Shown here in pieces: positions 10,152 through 40,877 of a stretch of DNA of 43,632 bases; position 1 is the first letter of the stretch, and each line of letters begins with the position of its first letter. A program made the translations under genes and the position numbers. The stretch spans positions 1 through 43,632 of the forward strand of contig JAFVZG010000054.1 of the NCBI GenBank assembly GCA_017508285.1. The letters run 5' to 3'. The notes under the pieces are model-generated. The model saw nothing but the letters and a program-made list of their open reading frames with translations, was not told the DNA's origin and searched no databases. Source of the DNA: Lentisphaeria bacterium. GTDB taxonomy: Bacteria > Verrucomicrobiota > Lentisphaeria > Victivallales > Victivallaceae.

Positions 10152-12731
10152 ATGAATGTGGAAAAATTTACCAACAAAAGCCGTGAAGCATTGATGAGAG
10201 CCCAACAGAGTGCGCAAGCTGCCGGTCATACCGAATTGCGGGCTCTGCATCTTTTGTCAGCATTGCTCGATGATGATGAGAGTCTGGTCAACTCCATACT
10301 GGAAAAACTGGGCGTGAATAAAGCATTATTCCGCAGCAAGGTCACTTCTGCGCTGTCGGATCTGCCCCGGGTTTCCGGCACTGCGCAGCAGGAAGTTGTG
10401 ATGACCGGGGAATTCAGCAGCGTACTGAATAATGCCATGCAGAAAGCCGCTGAAATGAAGGATGAATTCGTTTCAGTCGAGCATCTGTTGATGGCATTGC
10501 TCTCAGTCGACAGCAAAGCGGCGAAACTGCTCAATGATGCCGGAGTGAACAATGGCAACCTTTTAACTTCCCTGCAGTCATTGCGGGGCAATCAGCGGGT
10601 GACCTCCCCGGAACCGGAGGCGACATTTGAAGCATTGAAAAAGTATTCCCGTGATCTGACGATGATGGCGATGCAGGATAAACTTGATCCGGTCATCGGC
10701 AGAGATGAGGAGATCCGCCGGGTCATCCAGATACTTTCGCGCCGCACCAAAAACAATCCGGTGCTGATCGGTGAGCCGGGAGTCGGAAAAACCGCTATCG
10801 CTGAAGGACTTGCCCGCCGGGTGGTCAGCGGCGATGTGCCGGAGTCTCTCCGTGACCGCCGGGTGGTGGCTCTGGATATGGGTGCATTGATCGCCGGAGC
10901 GAAGTACCGGGGCGAATTTGAAGAGAGATTGAAAGCGGTTTTGAAAGAGGTCACATCCAGCGGAGGCAAAATCATTCTTTTCATTGATGAATTGCACACC
11001 GTGGTCGGTGCCGGCGGCGGAGATGGTTCCATGGATGCCGGCAATCTGCTCAAACCGATGCTCGCCCGCGGTGAATTGCACTGCATCGGCGCAACTACTT
11101 TGGATGAATACCGCAAATACATCGAAAAAGATGCCGCTCTTGAACGCCGTTTTCAGGCGGTCATGGTCAATCCGCCCTCAGTGGAAGATACCGTTTCCAT
11201 CCTGCGCGGCTTGAAAGAGCGTTATGAATTGCACCACGGTGTCCGGATCAAAGACAGCGCGCTGGTAGCGGCGGCAGTTCTTTCCGACAAATATATTTCC
11301 GGCAGATTCCTGCCCGACAAGGCGATCGACCTGGTGGATGAAGCCGCCGCCGCTTTGCGCACCGGGATCGACAGCAGCCCTCTGGAATTGGATGAAAACC
11401 GCCGCAAATTGATGCAGCTGGAAATCGAATTGACCAGCTTGCGCAATGAAAAGGATAAAGCCGGTATCAAACGCCGGGAGGAGTTGGAAAAAGAGGCGGC
11501 GGAACTCCGGGAACGCGGCAAGGAATTGCAGGCATTGTATGATAATGAAAAAAATGCCATCAGCAAGCTGCGCGATTGCCGGGAGGCTCTGGATCTCGCC
11601 AGAGGACAACTGGAAAAAGCAGAACGCTCCTACAATCTGGAAAAGGCCGCCGAATTGCGCCACGGCACCATCCCGAAACTGGAAAAACAGCTTGCCGATG
11701 CCGAAAATGCTTTCAATTCCGGCAGTTCTTCGCGGATGCTCAAAGAGGAGGTCGATGAAGATGAGATCGCCGCTATCATCAGCCGCTGGACAAATATCCC
11801 GGTAACCAAACTGGTGGAGAGCGAAAAAGAAAAACTGCTTTCACTTGCCGCAACTTTGCATGAGAGCGTTATCGGTCAGAATGAGGCGGTTTCCGCAGTC
11901 AGCGATGCGGTATTGCGTGCCAGAGCCGGTCTGCACGATCCGGCGCGCCCCATTGCCAGTTTCATCTTTCTCGGCCCTACCGGAGTGGGCAAAACGGAAC
12001 TTGCCAGGGCACTGGCACGGCAGCTTTTTGATGATGAAAGAGCCATGATCCGGATCGATATGTCAGAGTATATGGAAAAATTCAGTGTTTCCCGCCTGAT
12101 CGGTGCGCCTCCGGGATATGTCGGGTATGAAGAAGGCGGTCAATTGACCGAAGCAGTCCGGCGCCGCCCCTATTCGGTGGTGCTCTTTGACGAGATCGAA
12201 AAGGCTCACAGCGATGTTTTCAACATCCTGCTGCAGATCCTTGAAGACGGCAGAGTTACCGATTCACAGGGCAGAACGGTCAACTTCAAAAATACCATCA
12301 TCATCATGACCAGCAATCTGGGCAGTGCCATGATACTGGAAAACTCCGGCAAAGATGAGATGCAGTTGAAAGAGGCATTGAATCTGGAATTGCGTCGGCA
12401 CTTCCGGCCGGAATTCCTCAACCGTATCGACGAAACGCTTATATTCAAGTCGCTTACGCTTGAAGAATTGCGGGATATCGCCGGGATACAGATCCGGAAA
12501 CTCGCCGGGCGGCTGCAGGATAACGGTATCACGCTCGTCGTGGATGATAAAGCAAAAGAATTCATCGCCAAAACAGGGTATGACCCGGACTTCGGAGCCA
12601 GACCCCTGAAACGGGCAGTTATCCGGCTTCTGGAAACGCCGCTGGCAGGGAAGATCATCGCCGGAGAGATCGCCGTAAACAGTACCGTCAAAGTTTCTGA
12701 AAAAGATGGCAAACTGATCTTCAGCAATTGA
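10152..12731 (+). CDS. clpB: ATP-dependent disaggregase ClpB
   Basis: An 859-residue Hsp100 chaperone of standard ClpB length that, with DnaK, pulls proteins out of aggregates in the cytoplasm. It has a double Clp N-domain (residues 1-150, starting [17 protein letters not shown]), a first AAA+ module with Walker [14 protein letters not shown] (about 207) and [15 protein letters not shown], a long charged coiled coil (about 405-525) that distinguishes ClpB from ClpA/C, a second AAA+ module with Walker [16 protein letters not shown] (about 609) and pore loop [13 protein letters not shown], and a D2-small C-terminal domain. A strong GAGGAGG site precedes the start. No hsp neighbours are present. 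Confidence 0.97.
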
Positions 12732-29165: not shown

Positions 29166-29219
29166 ATAAAAGATGTTCAACAAAATTTCTCCATGCGGGG
29201 AAAAGAACAGGAGGGAAAA

Positions 29220-30251
29220 ATGAAACAGGCTTCGGAACGATCTTTTTCACTTTACTGTGGTAAAGTGAACTCCCGGGAGTTCAACAGTAATGGCTTGCCA
29301 CAACATTTTCCGGATACGGGTAGGCACGGGAAAGTACGGATAGATACGGAGAAAACCGTACCGCAAAGTTCGCTTTTCTTGAAAAGGGAAGTGGGGTTTG
29401 GGGAGAGGGGAAAAACCTCTTTTCCCGTGAAAAGAAGTTTTTCCCCTCTTCCCAAGAGCGCATTTACTTTAATAGAATTGCTGGTTGTTATTGCAATCAT
29501 AGCCATTCTGGCGGCGATATTGCTCCCTGCATTGAACAGTGCCCGTGAGCGCGGCAGAAGTGCCAGCTGTATCAACAACTTAAAGCAATTATCTCTCGCC
29601 ATGTCATCTTATCAGAACGATAAAGATGACTACTTCCCGGTACATGGATTCGGTATATATGCCAAAGACAGCAACGGCAATACCGTCAACGCTCAGGGCA
29701 GACAGGATTCAAACTGGATGTCGACTCTGTGGTTTGGCGGCTATGCCCCGGCTCCGCTGATATTCCGCTGCCCGGCGGTCAGTGAAAATCCCTACGGCGA
29801 CTGGAGCAGCATCCCCTCATGGTTCCCCAACGGCAGTTATCAGAAGATCAATGACTATGGATTCAACTTTCTGAATCTCGGCGGCAAAGTAGTTGACGGC
29901 AAACATCGCGGTGTCAAGGCGGCGATGGTCAGGGCACCGGCAAAAACCATCATGCTTGCCGACACAGTGACTTCCACTCATGCCTACAAGGGCACTATCG
30001 GTTGGGGAAATCCGTTATTATACGGTTACTATCCCAATGATGCCCAGACTACCTCCCGCGGGATCATTTCACTGCGTCATGCCGGTACCTGCAATGTGGC
30101 ATGGGCAGACGGTCATGTTTCCGGAGAACAGGTTTCCGGCTACAAAGAAACTACCGGTTATTCCAAAAATTTCAATCCCTACAAATTCCCCGGAGTCTTT
30201 GCGGGTATCAATGGGAGCAACTGCCACTGGGCATACTATCTGCAGCAGTAA
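29220..30251 (+). CDS. Type II secretion/pilin-like pseudopilin with H-x9-DG domain
   Basis: A 343-residue prepilin-like protein. The processing and membrane segment is [19 protein letters not shown] (81-99), with Phe82 as +1 and the conserved Glu86 at +5; Ala81 replaces the usual Gly at -1. A globular domain follows, closing with [12 protein letters not shown] (H287-x9-D297G298), the H-x9-DG motif of the large pseudopilin families in Lentisphaerota and Planctomycetota. GGAGG stands 6 nt before the ATG at 29220, which gives an abnormally long 81-residue basic leader encoded by a chain of palindromes. An in-frame GTG at 29427 would give a normal 12-residue leader. The gene lies between the regulator and two hydrolases, with no terminator, so a role in carbohydrate capture at the surface is inferred. 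Confidence 0.85.
29248..29453. repeat. Chain of palindromes inside the pseudopilin leader
   Basis: Within the coding frame: an 8-bp stem CACTTTAC/GTAAAGTG (29248-29267), a perfect 18-bp palindrome (29266-29283), GTACGG/CCGTAC (29334-29361), CTTTTC-TT-GAAAAG (29373-29386), and a 24-bp inverted repeat with only two mismatches (29400-29423 with 29430-29453, 6-nt loop). The frame stays open throughout. The last stem ends a few bases before the codons of the prepilin cleavage site. Confidence 0.8.
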
Positions 30252-30299: not shown

Positions 30300-33200
30300 A
30301 TGAGATTTTTTACATTATTCATGTTGGCAGTACCGGTACTGCTCAACGCCTTGGAATTGGCCCCCAACGGGGATTTCCAGCAGCTTGCCGGCAAGTGGGT
30401 GCGCCACTGGTCGCCCGCCCGTGGCTGGAAAGGCAAAACCGATTACCGCTGCAGCAAAGGTCTGCTCTGCATCGAGCGCATGGAACCGGGTTCCGGAGCA
30501 TTTTTGAGTTCAAAGATCCCGGTGGAAGCCGGTAAGGAATATACCGCTTCGATCCGCTGGCGCGCCACCATCGAAAAGGGCATCGCCGATCTGGCTCTTT
30601 ACTGGTATGATGCCAATGGCAGAAACCTCAAGTACACTCTGGTCAAACGGATGAAAAAGAGTTTTGACATCACGGATTTTGCCGGAAAGGTGACGGCACC
30701 GGATAAAGCCGCCAGTGTCCAGATGCTTCTGGTACTCAGCGGAGTCGGCAATGCGGAGTTTTTCAAAGCCGGATTTACCGGCGGTGATGAAGTAAAATCC
30801 AGTAACAGCAGTAAACCGGATATGGAGGGCAACTGCGCGCCCAATGCCGACTTCAAACTCCGCAAAGGCAAACTGCCGGCATCGTGGCTTCCGGCAGTCA
30901 ACTGGAAAGGCAAATCCGAATACGGCATGACCGCCGATGGTCTGCCTTACATCTCCCGCAGTGACCGCAACGGCAGCGGCGCATATATCGCCACATTCCC
31001 GGTGAAAGGAGAGACCTTTTATACCGTAAAAGCCGATCTCAAAAGCGAAAAGCTCTCCGGCATTGCCGATGTGGCTCTGCAATTCGTTGATGCCAAAGGA
31101 AAAATTTTCAACTACCAGTTGATCGGCAGGATCAAAAAAGAGACTGACTGGAAAACCTTTCAAAAGGTGATCCAAACCCCGGCAACGGCGCTCAAAGTCC
31201 GCTTTTTGCTGATCATTGGCGGCGAAGGTAAAGTAACCTTCCGCAATCCCTATTTCGGAGAAAGGATCCCCGATTCAGCCGCCGGCAAGACGGCGGTGAA
31301 TCTGCTTCTGAATCCCAGTTTTGAGGAAGCGGATTTTCAGGATGACTTCACTGATTCATGGCAATTGATCTCCGGGAAAGCCCGCCGCACGGCGGGCGCA
31401 TCCCACGGCTTTCACGCGCTGGAGTTGACGCCGGGAGCCAAAATCCGTTACGGATGGGAAGCACCGGCGGTCGCAGTCAGTGGCTTCCCTTTTTTGTATC
31501 GCCGTATCTCCGCCTGCGGCACCGGCAAAGCGCAATTTGAATTGACCTTCTACAATGCCGGGGGTAAAAAAATCGCCGCCAGCACGCTGGAAATCGCTCC
31601 GGAGGGCAAGGCGTATCAAAGCAAAACCGATAAAGTAAACATTCCTGCCGGTGCAGTAACCGCCGCTGTGATCATTGCCAATACCGGCAGCGGCACGGTC
31701 AGGATCGACGGCTTGTATCTCGGAGAAAACCCCTTTGAGAGCCACCGTCTCGGCAGAAGCATCCCCATCGTGACCGATCCGGAAACTTCCGCACCGCTGA
31801 CCATGCCGCAAAACAGCATCCGTGACCATCAGGGTATCCCGACATGGTTCATCGGCGATACACCGGTGGTCAACAGCACATTCACCAGTTCGACAAGTTC
31901 AACGATGCGCCCGGAGTGGTACGATTACGGCAAGCGTGTCCTGCGCAGCGGCAAATTCCCGATCCTCGTGATCGGTGCCAGCATCTCCCCGCATGACCGG
32001 GGAGAGAGGCACACCCTCGAAAAAGCCCTTGCCAAAACGGAATTTTCCATCAAAGCGGCACTGGCTGAAACTCCCGATGCCCGCTTTGTGATCTGGCTCT
32101 TTGTGGAGCCGACCTTCACCTTTGCCGCCCGCTTTCCCGATGAGATCATCAAAAAGGAGGATGCTTCGCTGAAATGGGCATCGCCGGAACCGCCTTACAG
32201 TTACGGTTCGGAGATCTGGGGCAGACTTTGCAGCCGCCGCATAAAAGAGTATCTGCACGCCCTGCGGAAAAAACCTTTTGCCGACCGGATCGTCGGCATC
32301 TCTCCGGGATTGGGCAAATATGCGGAAAACAATAACGCCCATGCCAATACTGTCGGCGGCTACACCGCAGGCGGATTCTGTGTTGCCATGACCAATTTTT
32401 TCCGCCAGTGGCTCTTTCAGGAGTATAAAGGCGATGTGACGGCATTTGCCAAAGCGTGGAACCGGAAAGGAAATTTCAACTTCACCAATGCTCTTGTACC
32501 CTCATCGCTCCAGCGGCTGCAGAAACTTGGCGGAGCCTTCTATGATCCGGCAAAACAGCGGCAGGTGATCGACTACAACCGGTGTTCATCCTTTGCCATA
32601 CTCCACCGGGTATTGAAACTCTGCCGCAGTGCCAAAGAGGCGACCGGCAACCGGATATTCACCTTTGCCCAATTCGCCTACTTCACCGGCAGCATGAATC
32701 ACCGGGAATTGGCAGTCGCATTGAGGTCGCCCCATCTTGATGCTCTGGGCCCCGCTCCCCCGTATATCAACCGCGGCCCGGGAGATGACATTCCCGACCA
32801 CGGCCCGGCGGCGTCGGTACGGGAACACAACAAAGTCTGGCTCTGTCAGGCAGATGTGCGTTCACACCTTGCCAGCGAACACAACTGGATGTATGGCAGA
32901 ACCCATAATGAAGCTGAATCCATTGCCGTTTATCTCCGGGAAACCGGTCACTACATGACCGCCGGGATCATCCCCTATCACATGACCTTTGAGCGTTGGT
33001 ATGACACTCCGGCTCTGATGAAACTGGTGGGGAATTTTGACCGCTGGATGGCATTGAGCGGGCACTTTTCCCGCAAATCCGCCGCTGAAGTGGCGGTGGT
33101 CATGGATCCGGTAAGTCTGAGCGTGGGCAATGAAACCAGTTATGTGCGCCGCATCATGCCGCCGTTTCAAAGTTCGCTTGAATACAACCGTACCTTTGAG

Positions 33201-34718
33201 TGGCACCATCTCGGTGCGCCTTATGACTTTTTTATGCTGGATGATCTGCTGAGATCCCCCCGTCTTGACCAGTATAAAGCTGTCATTATGGCGGCGAATT
33301 ACTCCATCTCTGCCGAAAACCGGCAGCTTATTGAAAAGCGGCTGAAACGCAACGGCAGAACCATCATCTGGATCTATGCTCCGGGATTTTTCAATCACGA
33401 CAAAAACCTTTTGACCTGCGCGGTGGAAAATACCGGGATCACCGGTTTTGATCTGGCGGTGGATAATAAACTCCACGATCTGGCGATCAAAACTGCCGGG
33501 GGCAGGCTGTACGGCAGATTCACCACAGATATTTACGGCGGCTTCACCATCCCGAAACGCCCGGTAAAAGTCCGTCCGGAAACTTTCCGTCCCCGTTTCC
33601 GGGTCATTCCGGGCAAAGATGTGAAGATCTTCGGCACTTACGCCGAAGACAACGCCCCTGCCGCCGCGATCCGCAAATTCAAGGATCACACTTCAGTATT
33701 TTGGGGTTCGACCGCTCTGAACAAAGAGGTTCTGCGCCCGATACTGGAAAAAGCCGGAGTACACTTCTACACTCCGCTTCCGGCGGTGGTCTACGCCAAC
33801 GGGAACTTCCTGACCGTCCACTCACCTGTCGCCGGTAAACGGGTGATCCGTCTGCCTTACAAAGCGGAGTTGATCTATGACCTTTACGCAGAAAAAGAGC
33901 TTGCCGCCGACAGCGATTCTGTAACGGTGGATATGGCAAAAAATTCTTCCGTACTGCTCTACTTCGGCGGGCGCGACCGGTTCCGCAAAGCCCTGAATGC
34001 CGTCGATTCCGCCAGAGAGGCAAGAGAAAAGCGCAACGCCCCGAAACGCACCGTCTTCAAATTCGGTGCAGTCAAAAAAGAGCCGCTGGCAAAACGGGCG
34101 GCAACCGGAACACTCTATCCGGTGGAAGATACCGGTTTCATCCGCCACTGGCAGATACTCGGCCCATTCCCCAACAGTGAGGATGCCAAAGCATTCAATA
34201 TCGACTTTCTCAACGGTGAAAAAAACCGCACCGTCAAAACGGATGCCGTATACCATGCCGTCTTCGATGCCTCCGGCAATAAACGCGCACTGGAAAAAAG
34301 CCTCTGGTTCAACGGCAAAGCGGAAAAACGCACTTTGCAACTCAAATGGATGCCGTTTGAATTTTCGCAGGGGATCGTGGTTCCGTTGAGTGATCAGATC
34401 GGAGAATTCCCGTTTTTTGACCGGATCGCCTACTATGTATTCTGCAAGGTCATCAGCGATAAAGAACGGCAGTTGATACTTGCCATCGGCAGTGATGACG
34501 GCCACAAGAGCTGGTTCAACGGCGAATTGATCACCTCGGTCAATGTGATGAGCCGTTCGGCGCAACCGGATACCGATCAGGGAAAAGTCACGCTGAAAAA
34601 GGGGGAAAACACCCTGCTTTTGAAAGTTTGTCAGGGTCAGGGAAAACTCGGTCACATCGTCCGTTTCCTCGATCCGGAAAACAACCGCCCGGTAACTGAT
34701 TTGAAAATTTCGCTGTAA
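30300..34718 (+). CDS. Giant secreted glycoside-hydrolase-like protein, paralogue 1
   Basis: A 1472-residue exported protein. The signal peptide ends near LLNA (residue 18). Three beta-sandwich, CBM-like domains follow (about 20-155, 180-318 and 335-480, the last starting LLLNPSFEEADF). Residues ~500-930 look like a TIM-barrel of the GH-A type: GISPGLGKYAENN (Glu near 675, candidate acid/base), PAPPYINRGPGDDIPDHGP (~815-833) and QADVRSHLASEHNW (Glu near 860). Next comes a Rossmann-like domain (FFMLDDLLRS, then GRTIIWIYAPGFF) resembling the second domain of GH42 beta-galactosidases. A C-terminal jelly-roll (~1280-1472) has SDDGHKSWFNG and a GENTLLLKVCQG segment. The GH42-like call is by architecture only. 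AAGGAG precedes the ATG; it follows the pseudopilin by 48 bp. Confidence 0.6.
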   Translation: MRFFTLFMLAVPVLLNALELAPNGDFQQLAGKWVRHWSPARGWKGKTDYRCSKGLLCIERMEPGSGAFLSSKIPVEAGKEYTASIRWRATIEKGIADLALYWYDANGRNLKYTLVKRMKKSFDITDFAGKVTAPDKAASVQMLLVLSGVGNAEFFKAGFTGGDEVKSSNSSKPDMEGNCAPNADFKLRKGKLPASWLPAVNWKGKSEYGMTADGLPYISRSDRNGSGAYIATFPVKGETFYTVKADLKSEKLSGIADVALQFVDAKGKIFNYQLIGRIKKETDWKTFQKVIQTPATALKVRFLLIIGGEGKVTFRNPYFGERIPDSAAGKTAVNLLLNPSFEEADFQDDFTDSWQLISGKARRTAGASHGFHALELTPGAKIRYGWEAPAVAVSGFPFLYRRISACGTGKAQFELTFYNAGGKKIAASTLEIAPEGKAYQSKTDKVNIPAGAVTAAVIIANTGSGTVRIDGLYLGENPFESHRLGRSIPIVTDPETSAPLTMPQNSIRDHQGIPTWFIGDTPVVNSTFTSSTSSTMRPEWYDYGKRVLRSGKFPILVIGASISPHDRGERHTLEKALAKTEFSIKAALAETPDARFVIWLFVEPTFTFAARFPDEIIKKEDASLKWASPEPPYSYGSEIWGRLCSRRIKEYLHALRKKPFADRIVGISPGLGKYAENNNAHANTVGGYTAGGFCVAMTNFFRQWLFQEYKGDVTAFAKAWNRKGNFNFTNALVPSSLQRLQKLGGAFYDPAKQRQVIDYNRCSSFAILHRVLKLCRSAKEATGNRIFTFAQFAYFTGSMNHRELAVALRSPHLDALGPAPPYINRGPGDDIPDHGPAASVREHNKVWLCQADVRSHLASEHNWMYGRTHNEAESIAVYLRETGHYMTAGIIPYHMTFERWYDTPALMKLVGNFDRWMALSGHFSRKSAAEVAVVMDPVSLSVGNETSYVRRIMPPFQSSLEYNRTFEWHHLGAPYDFFMLDDLLRSPRLDQYKAVIMAANYSISAENRQLIEKRLKRNGRTIIWIYAPGFFNHDKNLLTCAVENTGITGFDLAVDNKLHDLAIKTAGGRLYGRFTTDIYGGFTIPKRPVKVRPETFRPRFRVIPGKDVKIFGTYAEDNAPAAAIRKFKDHTSVFWGSTALNKEVLRPILEKAGVHFYTPLPAVVYANGNFLTVHSPVAGKRVIRLPYKAELIYDLYAEKELAADSDSVTVDMAKNSSVLLYFGGRDRFRKALNAVDSAREAREKRNAPKRTVFKFGAVKKEPLAKRAATGTLYPVEDTGFIRHWQILGPFPNSEDAKAFNIDFLNGEKNRTVKTDAVYHAVFDASGNKRALEKSLWFNGKAEKRTLQLKWMPFEFSQGIVVPLSDQIGEFPFFDRIAYYVFCKVISDKERQLILAIGSDDGHKSWFNGELITSVNVMSRSAQPDTDQGKVTLKKGENTLLLKVCQGQGKLGHIVRFLDPENNRPVTDLKISL

Positions 34719-34751
34719 ACAGATAAAAAGCCTATCACAGAAAGGAAAATC

Positions 34752-37700
34752 ATGAAAAAACTATTCTCTCTGACCGCATTGCTGGCACTCTCTCTGCTCC
34801 ACGGGGCAAATATCCTGCCGGATGGAGAATTCCGGCAGATCAAAGGCAGCCGCCTGCTGAAGTGGGAGGCGATGACCCGCTGGGCGGGAAAGAATGTCTA
34901 CCGCCATGTGCCGGGAACCATCTGCATCGAACGCCCGGAAAATGACCGGGGCGCCGGAGCATATATGAGTTACAATATCCCGGTAATCCCCGGCAAAAGT
35001 TACTCCTTTGCCGTGGATTGCAAACTTATTTCCAACAACTCAGCCTACGCCGATCTGGCAGTCAACTGGTATGATCTCAACCGGAAAAAAATCGCTTACA
35101 CCCTGATCAAACGGGTAAAGAAACCCGGAAAATTCCGGCTGAGCGGAAAATCTGCCGCTCCTGCCAAAGCCGCATTTGCCAGATTCCTGCTGGCAGCGGG
35201 CGGTTCCGGAAGTGTCGAATTTGCCAATGCCATCATGGATGACGGCAATAAAGAAAATCCCGGTGCCGTACTCAGTGCCGCAAATCTGCTGAAAAATCCC
35301 GGATTCAAAACCGGCAAAAACGGTCTGCCGCTTGATTGGAATACCACCCGCTGGCCCGGAAAAACCGAATTCACCATGCAAAACGGTCTGCCGCTGATCC
35401 GCCGCAGTGAAGAGTTGGATAAAGCCGGGGCATTCATCAGCACTCCGGTAAAAGTCAAAGGTCTTAAAAGCCTCACGGTATCCGGAGAGATCTCCACGCA
35501 GAAAGTCTCCGGGAATTCGGATATTTCCATCCAGTTCATCAATGCCGCCGGAAAAACTTTCCAGTACCACCTGATCAGCAGAACCAAAGGCAATACCCCG
35601 TGGAAAAGATTCTCCAAATTGATCAATGTTCCGGCTCAGGCGGTCGCGGTGCGGATGCTGCTGGTGCAGTGCGGCACCGGTGAAACCACCTTCCGTAATC
35701 CGGTGATCTCCGACAAAGAACCGGAGGTCGTCAACCCCCGCATCGAAACCTCTCTGCTCCTCAACGGCAGTTTTGAAGAGGCGGACTTCAATACCGGATT
35801 TGCCGACTGTTTCACTTCAGCCGGCAACTCCGCCCGGCGGATCGCCGATGCCGCCCACGGTTTTCATGCAGTAGAATTACCTGCCAAAACCAAACTGGTT
35901 TACGGCACGGAAAACAGCGGTTCTATCGCAGTAAAAGGCAATGACAGGCTTTTTTTTTCCTTTTTTTCCAAAGGGAAAGGCAAAGTTGAAGTCACATTGA
36001 CCTTCTTTGACAGCCGCCGCAATATCCTTGATGAAAAACAGACATTTACCGTCACCCCGTCATCCGGCTACCGGCAGCAGGAGTTTCAATTCACCACTCC
36101 CGCCGCCGCCCGGACGGCTGCCCTTTATATCACCAATACCGGTGATGCTCCGGTACAGCTCGATGCCCTGCATCTGGGCAAAACCAAATTCGACGGCAGC
36201 AAAGTCGCCGTCATGCCCCGCTTTGACTTCCCCGCCCCGGCGGCAGAACAGAAGTTCCCGGCAAGCACCATAAAGAACCATAACGGCACACCGGCATGGT
36301 TCATCGACGGCAAAGCGGTGGATTGTGCGATGTACACCCTGAGCAACATCAAGATCGATTCCCGGAAAAAATGGTACGATTATGTCAGAAATGTCCTGAA
36401 AACCGGGCAATTCCCCATTCTCGTCATCGAGGTCTATATCACTCCGGAAAACTCCGGTGAGCGTTACACTCTTGCCACTGCCATGCGGGATATCGATGTG
36501 CAGATCCGCACCACTCTGGCAGAGATCCCCGATGCCAGATTCATCCTCTGGACGATGCTGGAACCTGCCAACGCTTTTGCCAACCGTTTCCCCGGTGACA
36601 TCTTGCGGGTGGCTGACAATACCTTGAAGTGGAAAGATCACACTCCTCCTTACAGTTACGGCTCGGAAGCATGGGGCAGAATCTGTGCCGTCAGGATCGC
36701 CGAATTACTCAATGCCGTATCCAAAACCCCTTTCGCCGACCGGATCGTCGGCATCTCTCCGGGGATGGGCAAATTCGGAGAGAACAACTTCGGCCATGCC
36801 AATACCGTCGGCGGCTACTCCCCGCATGACTTCAGCCCGGCGATGGTCAACTTCTTCCGCAAATGGCTCTTTATGGAGTACAAAGCCGATGTGCAGTCAT
36901 TTGCCGCCGCCTGGAACAAGCCCGGAATGAACTTCAATGAAGCGATGACTCCCGGTCTGTCGCGGCGGCTGGATAAAGATGATGCGACCTTCTACAATGT
37001 TGCAAAAAACCGTCAGAGCATCGACTATGTGCGCTGTGAATCATTTGCCATTCTGCACCGGGTGCTGCAGCAGTGTGAAGCGGCGAAGAAGATCACCGGC
37101 GGAAAAATTTTCACCTTCACCCAGTTTGCCTACTTCACCGGTTCGATGTTTCAGAGGGAGTTGGATTATGCGCTGAAAAATCCCTATCTTGATGCCATGG
37201 GCCCGGCACCTCCATACATCAACCGCGGCCCCGGCGATGACATTCCCGACCACGGCCCGGCGGCGTCAGTGCAGGCCAGCGGCAAAGCGTGGCTCTTTCA
37301 GGCAGATGTCCGCACCCACCTCGCCAGTGAACACAACTGGAAGTACGGCAGAACTTGCAGCGGGGATGAATCCGTTGCCGTATTTCTCCGGGATCTCGGC
37401 CACTATATGAGCACCGGCACGACGCCATATTACATGACCTTTGAAGAGTGGTATTCTTCTCCGGAAATGATGGCTCTGCTGGGCAGATTCAATGAATTGC
37501 TCCAACTTTCCGCCCGATTTCCACGGCGCACATCCGCCCGGATCGCCGTGGTCATCGACCCGGTAAGTCTGGCAATCGGCCACGAATACAGTTATATCCG
37601 CCGCATCATGCCGCCGCAGCAGAGCACTCTGGAATACAACCGCACCTTTGAGTGGCACAAACTCGGCGCACCTTACGACTTTTATATGCTGGATGATCTG

Positions 37701-39173
37701 CTGGCGGTCAAAGACCTTTCGCGCTACAAGGCGGTGATCTTCGCTGCCAACTGGTGCATCAGCGACCGCCAGCGGCAGTTGATCAGAGAAAGACTGCAGA
37801 AAGAGGGGCGCACCCTGATCTGGTTTTTCGCTCCGGGCATCTTCCGCAAAAGCGGCAATTTCATCAGTTTCGATCAGAAAAATGCCGGTATCAGCGGCTT
37901 TGAATTTGACTTTGACTACCGCCCCGGTTCTCTGGAAATAAAACTGCCCGACGGCAGAGTTTACGGCAAATTCACCACCGATATCTACGGAGGATTCACC
38001 ATTCCATCCAGACCTGTCAAGGTGCGCAATGAAACTTTCCGCCCCCGGCTGACGGTGAAAAAAACTCCGGGCGTGGAAATTCTCGGTAATTATGCCGCCG
38101 ACGGTCTTCCCGGATTCGCCCGCAGAAAAGGCCGAGAGCACACCGATATATTCTGGGGCTCAAGCGCACTGAATAAGGAAGTCCTCATCCCGCTGCTCAA
38201 GGATGCCGGAGTACACCTTTATACCGATACTCCGGCAGTGGTCTACGCCAATAAAAACTTCATCTCCATCCACAATGCCGAACCCCGCAAAGTAACCTTG
38301 ACCCTGCCGGAAAAAGCCGGGGTCATCTATGATCTTTATCAGGAAAAGATCCTCGCGGAAAACAGCCGCACTCTCACCGTGGATATGAAGAAAAATTCCA
38401 CGCTTCTCCTCTACTGCGGCGAATTGAAGGCTCTGAAAAATGCCCTTGCAGATGTGAGAAAAGTCAATAGTGACAGAATAAAGAAAAATCAGACCGCTAA
38501 AGCGAAATTCGCCTATTCACTGCCGGAAATAAAAAATCTTGCCCGGAAAGTCGATCCGGCAGCCGTTTACCCGGTGGAAAATGACGGCACCATCCGCCAT
38601 TGGCAGATACTCGGAGCCTTCCCCGGTCTTGCCGATACCGGCTACGGTTTTACTGTCGACTTCATCGGAGAAAAGAGTTTCAACGGGCAATTCAATAAAA
38701 AATATGAGGTCGAATTTGCCGCCGGAATAAAAAACCCTCTGGAAAAACAGGCGTGGTTCAAGGGCAGAAGCGACCGGAAAAAATTTACTCTCAAATGGGA
38801 ACCCCTGCGCCTTTCCAAAAATGTGGTGCGGGCGATGTATGAAGAAACTTCCAACTTCCCGTTTTATGAATACATCACCTATTATGCAAGCTGTTATGTG
38901 GTCAGTGACCGGGAAAGGGAGTTGATCCTTGCCATCGGCAGTGATGACGGCGAAAAAACTTTTCTCAACGGCACACCGGTCACTTCCCGCCGGATCGTCA
39001 GCCGCCGGCTGCAGCCGGATAGCGAACAGGGTATTGTCAAATTGAAAAAAGGTAAAAATCTTCTGCTGGTCAAAGTCTGTCAGGGCGGCGGCGGAGTAGG
39101 TCATACCCTCCGCTTCCTCGATCCGGCAAACAACAATAAACCGGTAACTGATTTGAAAATAACTCTGCAGTAA
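34752..39173 (+). CDS. Giant secreted glycoside-hydrolase-like protein, paralogue 2
   Basis: A 1473-residue tandem paralogue of the previous protein, collinear along the whole length. The signal peptide ends near LLHGA (residue 19). The same domains appear in order: three CBM-like sandwiches (third starting LLLNGSFEEADF near 336), the barrel with GISPGMGKFGENN (Glu near 677), PAPPYINRGPGDDIPDHGPAAS and QADVRTHLASEHNW (~850-863), the Rossmann-like FYMLDDLLAV and GRTLIWFFAPGIF segments, and the C-terminal jelly-roll with SDDGEKTFLNG. Barrel-face motifs are nearly identical between paralogues, while the N-terminal sandwiches and the surface of the C-terminal domain differ, so binding specificity may have diverged more than catalysis. 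It lies 33 bp after paralogue 1 and ends in a strong terminator. Confidence 0.6.
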   Translation: MKKLFSLTALLALSLLHGANILPDGEFRQIKGSRLLKWEAMTRWAGKNVYRHVPGTICIERPENDRGAGAYMSYNIPVIPGKSYSFAVDCKLISNNSAYADLAVNWYDLNRKKIAYTLIKRVKKPGKFRLSGKSAAPAKAAFARFLLAAGGSGSVEFANAIMDDGNKENPGAVLSAANLLKNPGFKTGKNGLPLDWNTTRWPGKTEFTMQNGLPLIRRSEELDKAGAFISTPVKVKGLKSLTVSGEISTQKVSGNSDISIQFINAAGKTFQYHLISRTKGNTPWKRFSKLINVPAQAVAVRMLLVQCGTGETTFRNPVISDKEPEVVNPRIETSLLLNGSFEEADFNTGFADCFTSAGNSARRIADAAHGFHAVELPAKTKLVYGTENSGSIAVKGNDRLFFSFFSKGKGKVEVTLTFFDSRRNILDEKQTFTVTPSSGYRQQEFQFTTPAAARTAALYITNTGDAPVQLDALHLGKTKFDGSKVAVMPRFDFPAPAAEQKFPASTIKNHNGTPAWFIDGKAVDCAMYTLSNIKIDSRKKWYDYVRNVLKTGQFPILVIEVYITPENSGERYTLATAMRDIDVQIRTTLAEIPDARFILWTMLEPANAFANRFPGDILRVADNTLKWKDHTPPYSYGSEAWGRICAVRIAELLNAVSKTPFADRIVGISPGMGKFGENNFGHANTVGGYSPHDFSPAMVNFFRKWLFMEYKADVQSFAAAWNKPGMNFNEAMTPGLSRRLDKDDATFYNVAKNRQSIDYVRCESFAILHRVLQQCEAAKKITGGKIFTFTQFAYFTGSMFQRELDYALKNPYLDAMGPAPPYINRGPGDDIPDHGPAASVQASGKAWLFQADVRTHLASEHNWKYGRTCSGDESVAVFLRDLGHYMSTGTTPYYMTFEEWYSSPEMMALLGRFNELLQLSARFPRRTSARIAVVIDPVSLAIGHEYSYIRRIMPPQQSTLEYNRTFEWHKLGAPYDFYMLDDLLAVKDLSRYKAVIFAANWCISDRQRQLIRERLQKEGRTLIWFFAPGIFRKSGNFISFDQKNAGISGFEFDFDYRPGSLEIKLPDGRVYGKFTTDIYGGFTIPSRPVKVRNETFRPRLTVKKTPGVEILGNYAADGLPGFARRKGREHTDIFWGSSALNKEVLIPLLKDAGVHLYTDTPAVVYANKNFISIHNAEPRKVTLTLPEKAGVIYDLYQEKILAENSRTLTVDMKKNSTLLLYCGELKALKNALADVRKVNSDRIKKNQTAKAKFAYSLPEIKNLARKVDPAAVYPVENDGTIRHWQILGAFPGLADTGYGFTVDFIGEKSFNGQFNKKYEVEFAAGIKNPLEKQAWFKGRSDRKKFTLKWEPLRLSKNVVRAMYEETSNFPFYEYITYYASCYVVSDRERELILAIGSDDGEKTFLNGTPVTSRRIVSRRLQPDSEQGIVKLKKGKNLLLVKVCQGGGGVGHTLRFLDPANNNKPVTDLKITLQ

Positions 39174-39347: not shown

Positions 39348-40877
39348 ATGAAACAGATCGCAGAGAGTTTGATCGCTTACCTCGGCAAAGGTGAGGCGAT
39401 CCTCCGGGAAAAAGTTTTGGCTTCCTCCGGAGATATCACCGTTTATCCCGCATCTATCCACGCCGTTGCCAATGCCGCAGTATTGATGTGCCGCGACAAT
39501 GCCGGTAAGTTCCTGCTGGTGACCGCCGCCGGCAAACGGGATATCCCGCAGGGATTTGAAGGCGACGAGATCGCCCTTGACGGCGGCTGTATCGCCCTCA
39601 AATGCGCCCTTTCCGAAGCCAATGCCGCCGCTCTGCGCAAATACTTCCCGTGGACAGCTCCGGTAAGTCTGCGCAATGTGCGCACCACCGTCGGCTGCGG
39701 AGACCGTCTCGGTCTGGCGACCATCGGCCATGTGCGCGCCGCCGGAAAAGTTCAGGTATCCCCGGTGCTCGCGCAGCAGTCAGTCCGTGAATTGACCATG
39801 ACCAAAAGAACTTTCCGCAGTGTGGTCGATGATGCCTGTTTCCTCGTCTTTACCGAAGATTACCGTGACGGTTACGGTGCTGACGGCGACCACCTCAAAA
39901 CCATCAAAGATATCGACACCGCCCTCGCCGCCGGTATGCCGATGATCACCCTCGACCTCTCCGATGTGATGAATGCCGCCGCCGGTGACTGGGATAGTGC
40001 TCAGGTAGCCGAAGGCTTTGCCAAACTTCCCGCCGGATTGCAGGAATTGATCCTGGCTGATTATGCGGATAAAGAATTCGTTCTCGGTTCAGAGGTCACC
40101 GTGGCTCTGGATTCGCTCACTGCCAAACGCTGCGCGGTGATGTATACCGCGACTCTGGACTTCGCTTTTGAAGTCTATGAACATCTCAAAGCCGCCCGCG
40201 GCAATGAATTCGATCTGGAAATCAGCATCGATGAGACCAGCAGCCCCACCCTGCCGTCACACCACCTTTTCATCGTGCGGGAATTGCGCCGCCGCGGAGT
40301 GGAATTCAGTTCTCTTGCCCCCCGCTTCATCGGTGAATTCCAGAAAGCGATCGACTACATCGGCGACCTCGATGAGTTTGACCGGCAATTCAAAGTCCAC
40401 GCTCTGATCGCCCAGAATTACGGCAATTACAAGATCTCCGTCCACAGCGGCAGTGACAAATTCGCCGTCTACCCCACCGTCGGCAGAGAGACCCGCCACT
40501 ATCTTCACCTCAAAACCGCCGGTACCAGCTGGCTGGAAGCGGTCACGGTCATCGCTTACAAAGATCCGGAACTCTACCGCGACATGCACCAGTGCGCCCT
40601 GGATAATGTGGCTGATATGCTCAAATTGTATCACATCACCGCCGACTTCAACAAGATCCCGGCTCTCGATACGCTCAAAGATGAGGAACTTCCCGCTTTG
40701 ATGACCATGCCGGAAGCCCGTCAATTGCTTCACATCAACTACGGCCCGATCCTGACCGGCGCATTGCGTGAGCGTTTCTTTGAAGCGATGCACAAATTTG
40801 AAGCCGATTACGATGCCCGGATCGAAGCACACTTTGACAAGCACCTCTCTCTGCTCGGCGTGCCTGCCAAAAACTGA
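39348..40877 (+). CDS. uxaE: Tagaturonate epimerase (UxaE family)
   Basis: A 509-residue cytoplasmic protein matching the UxaE family known from Thermotoga, which interconverts D-tagaturonate and D-fructuronate in galacturonate breakdown. Family segments in order: VGCGDRLGLATIGHVRA (about residue 115), VLAQQSVRELTMTKRTF, GYGADGDHLKTIKDID (~175), SIDETSSPTLPSHHLFIV (~293), RRRGVEFSSLAPRFIGEFQK, KISVHSGSDKFAVYP (~363) and LHLKTAGTSWLEAV. The His and Asp residues in the DGDH, ISVHSGSDK and IDET segments are likely metal ligands. It follows the hydrolase operon but has its own promoter. yajC starts 47 bp downstream. The match rests on remembered motifs of the family, not on a search. Confidence 0.85.
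   Translation: MKQIAESLIAYLGKGEAILREKVLASSGDITVYPASIHAVANAAVLMCRDNAGKFLLVTAAGKRDIPQGFEGDEIALDGGCIALKCALSEANAAALRKYFPWTAPVSLRNVRTTVGCGDRLGLATIGHVRAAGKVQVSPVLAQQSVRELTMTKRTFRSVVDDACFLVFTEDYRDGYGADGDHLKTIKDIDTALAAGMPMITLDLSDVMNAAAGDWDSAQVAEGFAKLPAGLQELILADYADKEFVLGSEVTVALDSLTAKRCAVMYTATLDFAFEVYEHLKAARGNEFDLEISIDETSSPTLPSHHLFIVRELRRRGVEFSSLAPRFIGEFQKAIDYIGDLDEFDRQFKVHALIAQNYGNYKISVHSGSDKFAVYPTVGRETRHYLHLKTAGTSWLEAVTVIAYKDPELYRDMHQCALDNVADMLKLYHITADFNKIPALDTLKDEELPALMTMPEARQLLHINYGPILTGALRERFFEAMHKFEADYDARIEAHFDKHLSLLGVPAKN

Follow-up and report, generated by a model that had tools for sequence, protein, structure and literature searches.

Two adjacent genes, P1 and P2, on contig JAFVZG010000054.1 of a Lentisphaeria bacterium (43,632 nucleotides in full, hereafter the window) encode collinear glycoside hydrolase (GH)-like proteins with glutamine at the position that aligns with the catalytic nucleophile of GH42. 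The same replacement occurs in five orthologues from other genomes. Within this group, termed the Q clade, the exchange of Glu for Gln at the nucleophile column is fixed together with other residues at the strand ends and in the loops of the barrel. P1 and P2 are putatively secreted, glycan-handling members of a large family of the Lentisphaeria and Verrucomicrobiota. The genome of the window (G000) is metagenome-derived, 1.87 Mb in size and 71% complete; its named relatives are Lentisphaeria metagenome-assembled genomes, one of them from sheep colon.

In GH42 enzymes, strand 4 supplies the acid/base, which is the Glu of an NE pair, and strand 7 supplies the nucleophile, likewise a Glu (PMC7105311). 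The family of P1 and P2 carries the strand-7 motif E-x-D-x-R-T, which reads Q-A-D-V-R in both proteins. The motif Glu was placed on the GH42 nucleophile by a full-length hhalign comparison and by a local run at low threshold; these two were used since a global alignment of the barrel on its own misaligned strand 7 through end effects. Confidence in the column at strand 7 is low to moderate. Among 63 distinct family proteins, column 850 is occupied by Glu in 54, by Asp in two, and by Gln in seven. P1, P2, and the five orthologues account for all seven Gln proteins and form one clade with 100/100 support, whereas the nearest outsiders (28–30% identity) have Glu. A sequencing error at Gln850 was considered and excluded, because the same residue recurs in both copies of the window and in five further genomes. 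The earlier note on this DNA had suggested that P1 and P2 are two enzymes with the same chemistry, possibly directed at different parts of a polymer, and expected two carboxylates at the active site. The canonical pair is missing, with Gln on strand 7 and no GH42-type NE, and ordinary shared chemistry cannot be assumed because the nucleophile column is Gln throughout the clade, compared with Glu or Asp in 56 of 56 other members.

Two residues further along, D852 is invariant (63/63) and R854 is nearly so (62/63), both exceeding E850 (54/63). D852 might accordingly be the true carboxylate of the family; the Q clade would then consist of ordinary active hydrolases in which position 850 only tunes the site. 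We regard such a misassignment as improbable. In both alignments, it is residue 850 that falls on the GH42 nucleophile and not 852, and 850 lies within the predicted strand 7 (residues 846–851), with 852 just beyond it.

On strand 4, the NE column of GH42 falls on Gly672 of P1, and a conserved Glu676 follows four residues further. The canonical NE is absent across the whole family. Glu676 aligned without gaps on the general acid of GH14 (GPAG-E-LRYP, hhalign probability 93), and its column contains 54 E, 6 Q, and 3 D in the 63 proteins. The strand-7 region of GH14 with its general base (FTC-x-EM) was left unaligned by hhalign; the corresponding position seems to be Gln in P1 and P2. As the GH42 acid/base column lies on Gly672 and Glu676 on the GH14 general acid, the family is, judged by its alignments, a blend of the three-domain architecture of GH42 and a GH14-like strand-4 acid. 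Outside the Q clade, six members with the strand-7 Glu carry Gln at the strand-4 acid position (e.g., L004 and L019), which may point to a further, reciprocal type of active-site alteration in the family.

Despite a core identity of about 53–57% among the seven proteins (two pairs are closer), E676, Gln850, D852, and R854 are retained in all of them. Fixed in the clade and missing from the five nearest outsiders are Q791, D830, D833, H834, H861, N862, and E898. D829 and H884 are likewise invariant in the clade and occur in two and one of these five outsiders, respectively. Conservation is concentrated in the strand-6 loop, where 16 of 19 positions (84%) are invariant, compared with 127 of 403 (32%) in the barrel (binomial p 3.2e-6). 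In an E-type control group, 13 of the 19 loop positions were invariant versus about half. Purifying selection was apparent in the barrels of the closely related G305 and G222 proteins (0.02 nonsynonymous and 0.17 synonymous substitutions per site).

A rewired hydrolase is preferred as an explanation, since the proton donor has been kept and the change to Gln was accompanied by the fixation of acidic residues. P1 and P2 would be single-displacement (inverting) glycosidases, a tentative assignment that leads the alternatives, with loss of catalysis nearly level with it. The proteins would still cleave glycosides, with Glu676 donating the proton and water attacking in a single displacement in place of the usual covalent step. 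The water could be activated by a carboxylate of the pocket, either D829, D830, or D833 in the strand-6 loop, E898 near strand 8, or D852, while Gln850 would merely position it. The N-terminal sandwich domains may hold the polymer close to the barrel. Replacement of a nucleophile in this manner is known from GH97, where the nucleophile was lost and a carboxylate at another position serves as a base (PMC2670981), and in GH95 AfcA, two Asn are believed to activate the water (PMC8106489). More doubtful is the narrower proposal that catalysis was re-sited to D829/D830/D833 or E898 with Glu676 as the acid, which would amount to a new single-displacement mechanism in a GH42-like architecture, directed at a gut polysaccharide.

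Several points weigh against a rewired hydrolase. The E281Q mutant of Op5Man5, a GH42-shaped mannosidase, is inactive (PMC8233224). The orientation of D829, D830, D833, and E898 toward the anomeric carbon is deduced solely from their strand and loop positions. Taken together, the strand-to-helix loops are no richer in invariant positions than the rest of the barrel (39/124 compared with 88/279), and general conservation of these loops was rejected as proof of an active site. Moreover, a binding pocket would show conservation, too. The Q clade might have lost hydrolysis and kept the pocket for glycan binding or capture, as a secreted protein with multiple sugar-binding domains. This is a serious possibility, only a little less probable than rewiring: Gln occupies the nucleophile column in seven of seven proteins, the Op5Man5 mutant demonstrates the effect of the same exchange, and the core is flanked by several sandwich domains suited to binding. 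A simple loss of catalysis, however, does not require that the putative donor E676 be kept in 7/7 proteins or that acidic residues be gained around the pocket.

The retained proton donor would also suit substrate-assisted catalysis, in which the nucleophile is provided by the 2-acetamido group of the substrate, oriented by Gln850 and an acidic neighbor. Substrate assistance replaces the enzyme nucleophile in GH18, GH20, GH84, and GH85, which speaks for this explanation. In these families, however, the assisting residue stands beside the strand-4 acid and not on strand 7, and the genes neighboring the pair of the window gave no clue to an N-acetylhexosamine; substrate assistance therefore appears quite improbable. 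Least probable of all is a phosphorylase in which phosphate substitutes for the missing nucleophile as in GH112, although the phosphate site of GH112 is near the position of the GH42 nucleophile, the acid is kept, and the overall fold is GH42-like (PMC8106489). The apparent signal peptides would place phosphorolysis outside the cytoplasm, and such a function is unlikely because P1 and P2 look exported. Furthermore, the residues gained in the clade are acidic and not basic, and no GH112-type model of Pfam-A matched P1 or P2 up to an E-value of 1, a search that a distant relative could escape.

The assignment of P1 and P2 to a GH42-related fold was obtained from profiles and models. Neither P1 nor P2 has a barrel that falls within a curated Pfam or NCBIfam family, in agreement with the earlier note, which could not name the family with confidence. 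The GH42 model PF02449 (gathering score 21 bits) reached 12.5 bits with P2, below the cut-off, and did not match P1; it matched 24 of 35 family members at an E-value of 0.01 or better. A search of the PDB with phmmer gave no matches for P1 or for one relative, and only the profile of the family alignment (A1, 35 relatives) reached GH42 structures (E 1e-21) and GH14 beta-amylase, the latter at a weaker E-value of about 1e-7. Aligned with 16 canonical GH42 proteins by hhalign, the family matched over the whole core (probability 100, E 3.5e-42). An AlphaFold2 model of the core (predicted local distance difference test, pLDDT, 87.2; predicted template modeling score 0.89) had the GH42 structure 3tts as its best Foldseek match (E 3e-25), followed by a GH35 glucosaminidase and GH164. 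VIA Z values were about 21–23 for GH42, GH35, GH14, and GH164 (22 for GH14). The proposed kinship with GH42 is thus borne out by the PDB profile search, hhalign, and Foldseek. The family is abundant in Lentisphaeria and other Verrucomicrobiota; its strong matches number far more than 100 and are spread over 60 of 195 genomes.

Upstream of the core, the three N-terminal sandwiches (N1–N3) were all-beta in the AlphaFold2 model (pLDDT 75). In P1, N2 is an internal repeat of N1 (37.5% identity over 136 amino acids, E 7e-26). The carbohydrate-binding module (CBM) model CBM_4_9 of Pfam matched N1 of P1 with 27 bits, above the cut-off of 25.9, and P2 below it with 16.5 bits. The sandwich set also matched a CBM22-bearing xylanase (E 1e-6). 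By these matches, the N-terminal domains are CBM4/9- and CBM22-like. Foldseek matches of this part to insecticidal proteins and reelin were generic jelly-roll similarities with a very large root-mean-square deviation and were disregarded. The C-terminal domain had no Pfam match in P1, and only weak matches for the set.

P1 and P2 are arranged head to tail, 33 bp apart on the plus strand, and their N-termini read like signal peptides. As the earlier note had stated, both open reading frames are present and collinear; BLASTP aligned them end to end with 717/1463 identities (49%), 65% positives, and 21 gap positions, far above chance. Two barrel motifs described as almost unchanged, PAPPYINRGPGDDIPDHGP and ASEHNW, are indeed identical in P1 and P2. 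The sandwiches have drifted faster than the core, as was also proposed: N1, N2, and N3 share 39%, 42%, and 36% identity, respectively, in contrast to 58% in the barrel and 60% in the Rossmann-like domain. The C-terminal domains are 52% identical.

The origin of the pair was less clear. Five other genomes (G020, G212, G222, G271, and G305) contain a single-copy orthologue, and among the genomes with orthologues that were compared, the adjacent two-copy arrangement is confined to the window genome. The core identity of P1 and P2 (57%) hardly exceeds that between either of them and the single-copy orthologues (54–56%), and the tree left the pairings among P1, P2, and the G020 copy unsettled (approximately unbiased test, p 0.47, 0.33, and 0.11, none rejected). 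Of the tandem duplication postulated earlier, the adjacent paralogous pair holds, and a recent origin in place is not demonstrable; a young duplication was dismissed as unsupported, the tree giving no resolution of P1, P2, and G020. Given the small margin in core identity and the unsettled tree, tandem duplication here means an adjacent paralogous pair of undefined age. The pair may stem from an old tandem duplication or from a later joining of copies. The UBA1724 orthologue (L042 4813-8929) is split into two overlapping frames of 645 and 918 amino acids, reflecting either a frameshift or an assembly error. A stand-alone frame of 186 amino acids (G022:C84:52273-52743; L052 about 11274-11744), situated within a 98 kb contig, matches the final 157 residues of P1 with 61% identity; it is either what is left of a gene or an independent C-terminal domain.

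Table 1. Coordinates of P1, P2, their domains and active-site codons, and neighboring genes in the window
Feature	Position	Strand	Remarks
LacI-type transcription regulator, 332 aa	28167..29165	+	Pfam LacI E 5.9e-8, above cut-off; first gene of presumed operon
Type IV-like pseudopilin	29193..30251	+	Pfam N_methyl + DUF1559; directly precedes P1
P1, 1472 aa	30300..34718	+	Apparent signal peptide, three beta-sandwiches, GH42/GH14-like core, C-terminal beta domain
P1 sandwiches N1–N3, aa 19–480	30354..31739	+	CBM_4_9 Pfam match on N1; model; internal repeats
P1 TIM barrel, aa 500–925	31797..33074	+	AlphaFold2 model, Foldseek, hhalign to GH42
P1 Glu676 codon	32325..32327	+	Putative proton donor; aligns on GH14 general acid
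P1 strand-6 loop, aa 818–836	32751..32807	+	APPYINRGPGDDIPDHGPA region; D829, D830, D833, H834; 16/19 invariant in clade
P1 Gln850 codon (CAG)	32847..32849	+	GH42 nucleophile column
P1 Rossmann-like domain B and small beta domain C, aa 926–1233	33075..33998	+	As in GH42; AlphaFold2 model, Foldseek, hhalign
P1 C-terminal beta-rich domain, aa 1271–1472	34110..34715	+	No known family
P2, 1473 aa	34752..39173	+	Collinear paralogue of P1
P2 Glu677 codon	36780..36782	+	Counterpart of P1 Glu676
P2 Gln850 codon (CAG)	37299..37301	+	Nucleophile column
UxaE tagaturonate epimerase	39348-40877		Pfam E 4.5e-167; followed by YajC and SecD

The regulator, the pseudopilin, P1, and P2 (Table 1) are likely to form an operon because they share the same strand and are separated by short gaps (27 bp between regulator and pseudopilin, 48 bp between pseudopilin and P1). 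This setting of regulator and pseudopilin is shared with E-type paralogues. Pseudopilin and hydrolase-like gene form a cassette: in G000, where six loci were checked, each family gene with its 5' flank included in the contig has a DUF1559/FTLIELL pseudopilin immediately before it on the same strand (window 29193-30251; L044, L046, L047, L048, L049, and L050). Sites of the FTLIELL type number only 52 in the 1.87 Mb of this genome. The same gene order was found in G020, where a pseudopilin homologue (37.7% identity, in agreement with Pfam) takes the same place.

Apart from UxaE, which hints at uronate catabolism, the operon is surrounded by housekeeping genes. As a pointer to galacturonate, UxaE was judged weak, as the gene is located 175 bp past P2 and does not adjoin the orthologues examined. 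Next to the orthologues, the neighboring genes vary (a phosphotriesterase-family gene, a PL8-type lyase, and a C10 peptidase) and provided no pointer to a substrate. The Q-clade gene of G222 and G305 is followed immediately, after about 0–10 bp, by a phosphotriesterase-family gene (L065 6593-7657 and L067 5831-6667), and in G212 a PL8-type lyase gene is located about 2 kb from the Q-clade gene.

A natural Glu-to-Gln exchange at the nucleophile column across seven divergent proteins offers a ready-made test of whether a glycosidase has changed its mechanism or turned to binding. An annotation as beta-galactosidase on the basis of the fold is unsafe for the Q clade, and the numerous GH42/GH14-like genes of this family in the Lentisphaeria and other Verrucomicrobiota have no assignment in the libraries used. 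The pair would best be classed not as GH42 but as a clade with a substituted nucleophile inside a GH42/GH14-related family. A search of the mostly open-access literature found no paper on the Q clade.

Among known systems, GH97 provides a precedent by analogy only, since it is a different family, related to GH27 and calcium-dependent. The lacto-N-biose phosphorylases of GH112 have a GH42-like fold without the GH42 nucleophile and keep the acid (PMC8106489); P1 and P2 differ from them in lacking a Pfam match up to an E-value of 1 and in their apparent export. The beta-mannosidase Bs164 of GH164 (6T5O) has the same three-domain, trimer-type fold and matches at the fold level; Bs164 possesses both catalytic Glu (E160 and E297; PMC7105311). 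With the beta-amylases of GH14 (1B90), the family shares the strand-4 G..gE motif, which aligns without gaps on GPAGELRYP, whereas the GH42-type domains B and C, the apparent lack of the strand-7 Glu in the Q clade, and an hhalign probability of only 93 set P1 and P2 apart. The beta-galactosidases of GH42 (3TTS, 1KWG, and 5E9A) possess the same core of TIM barrel, Rossmann-like domain, and small beta domain. In contrast to them, P1 and P2 lack the strand-4 NE acid/base, have Gln at the strand-7 nucleophile column, and are about twice as long owing to extra N- and C-terminal beta domains.

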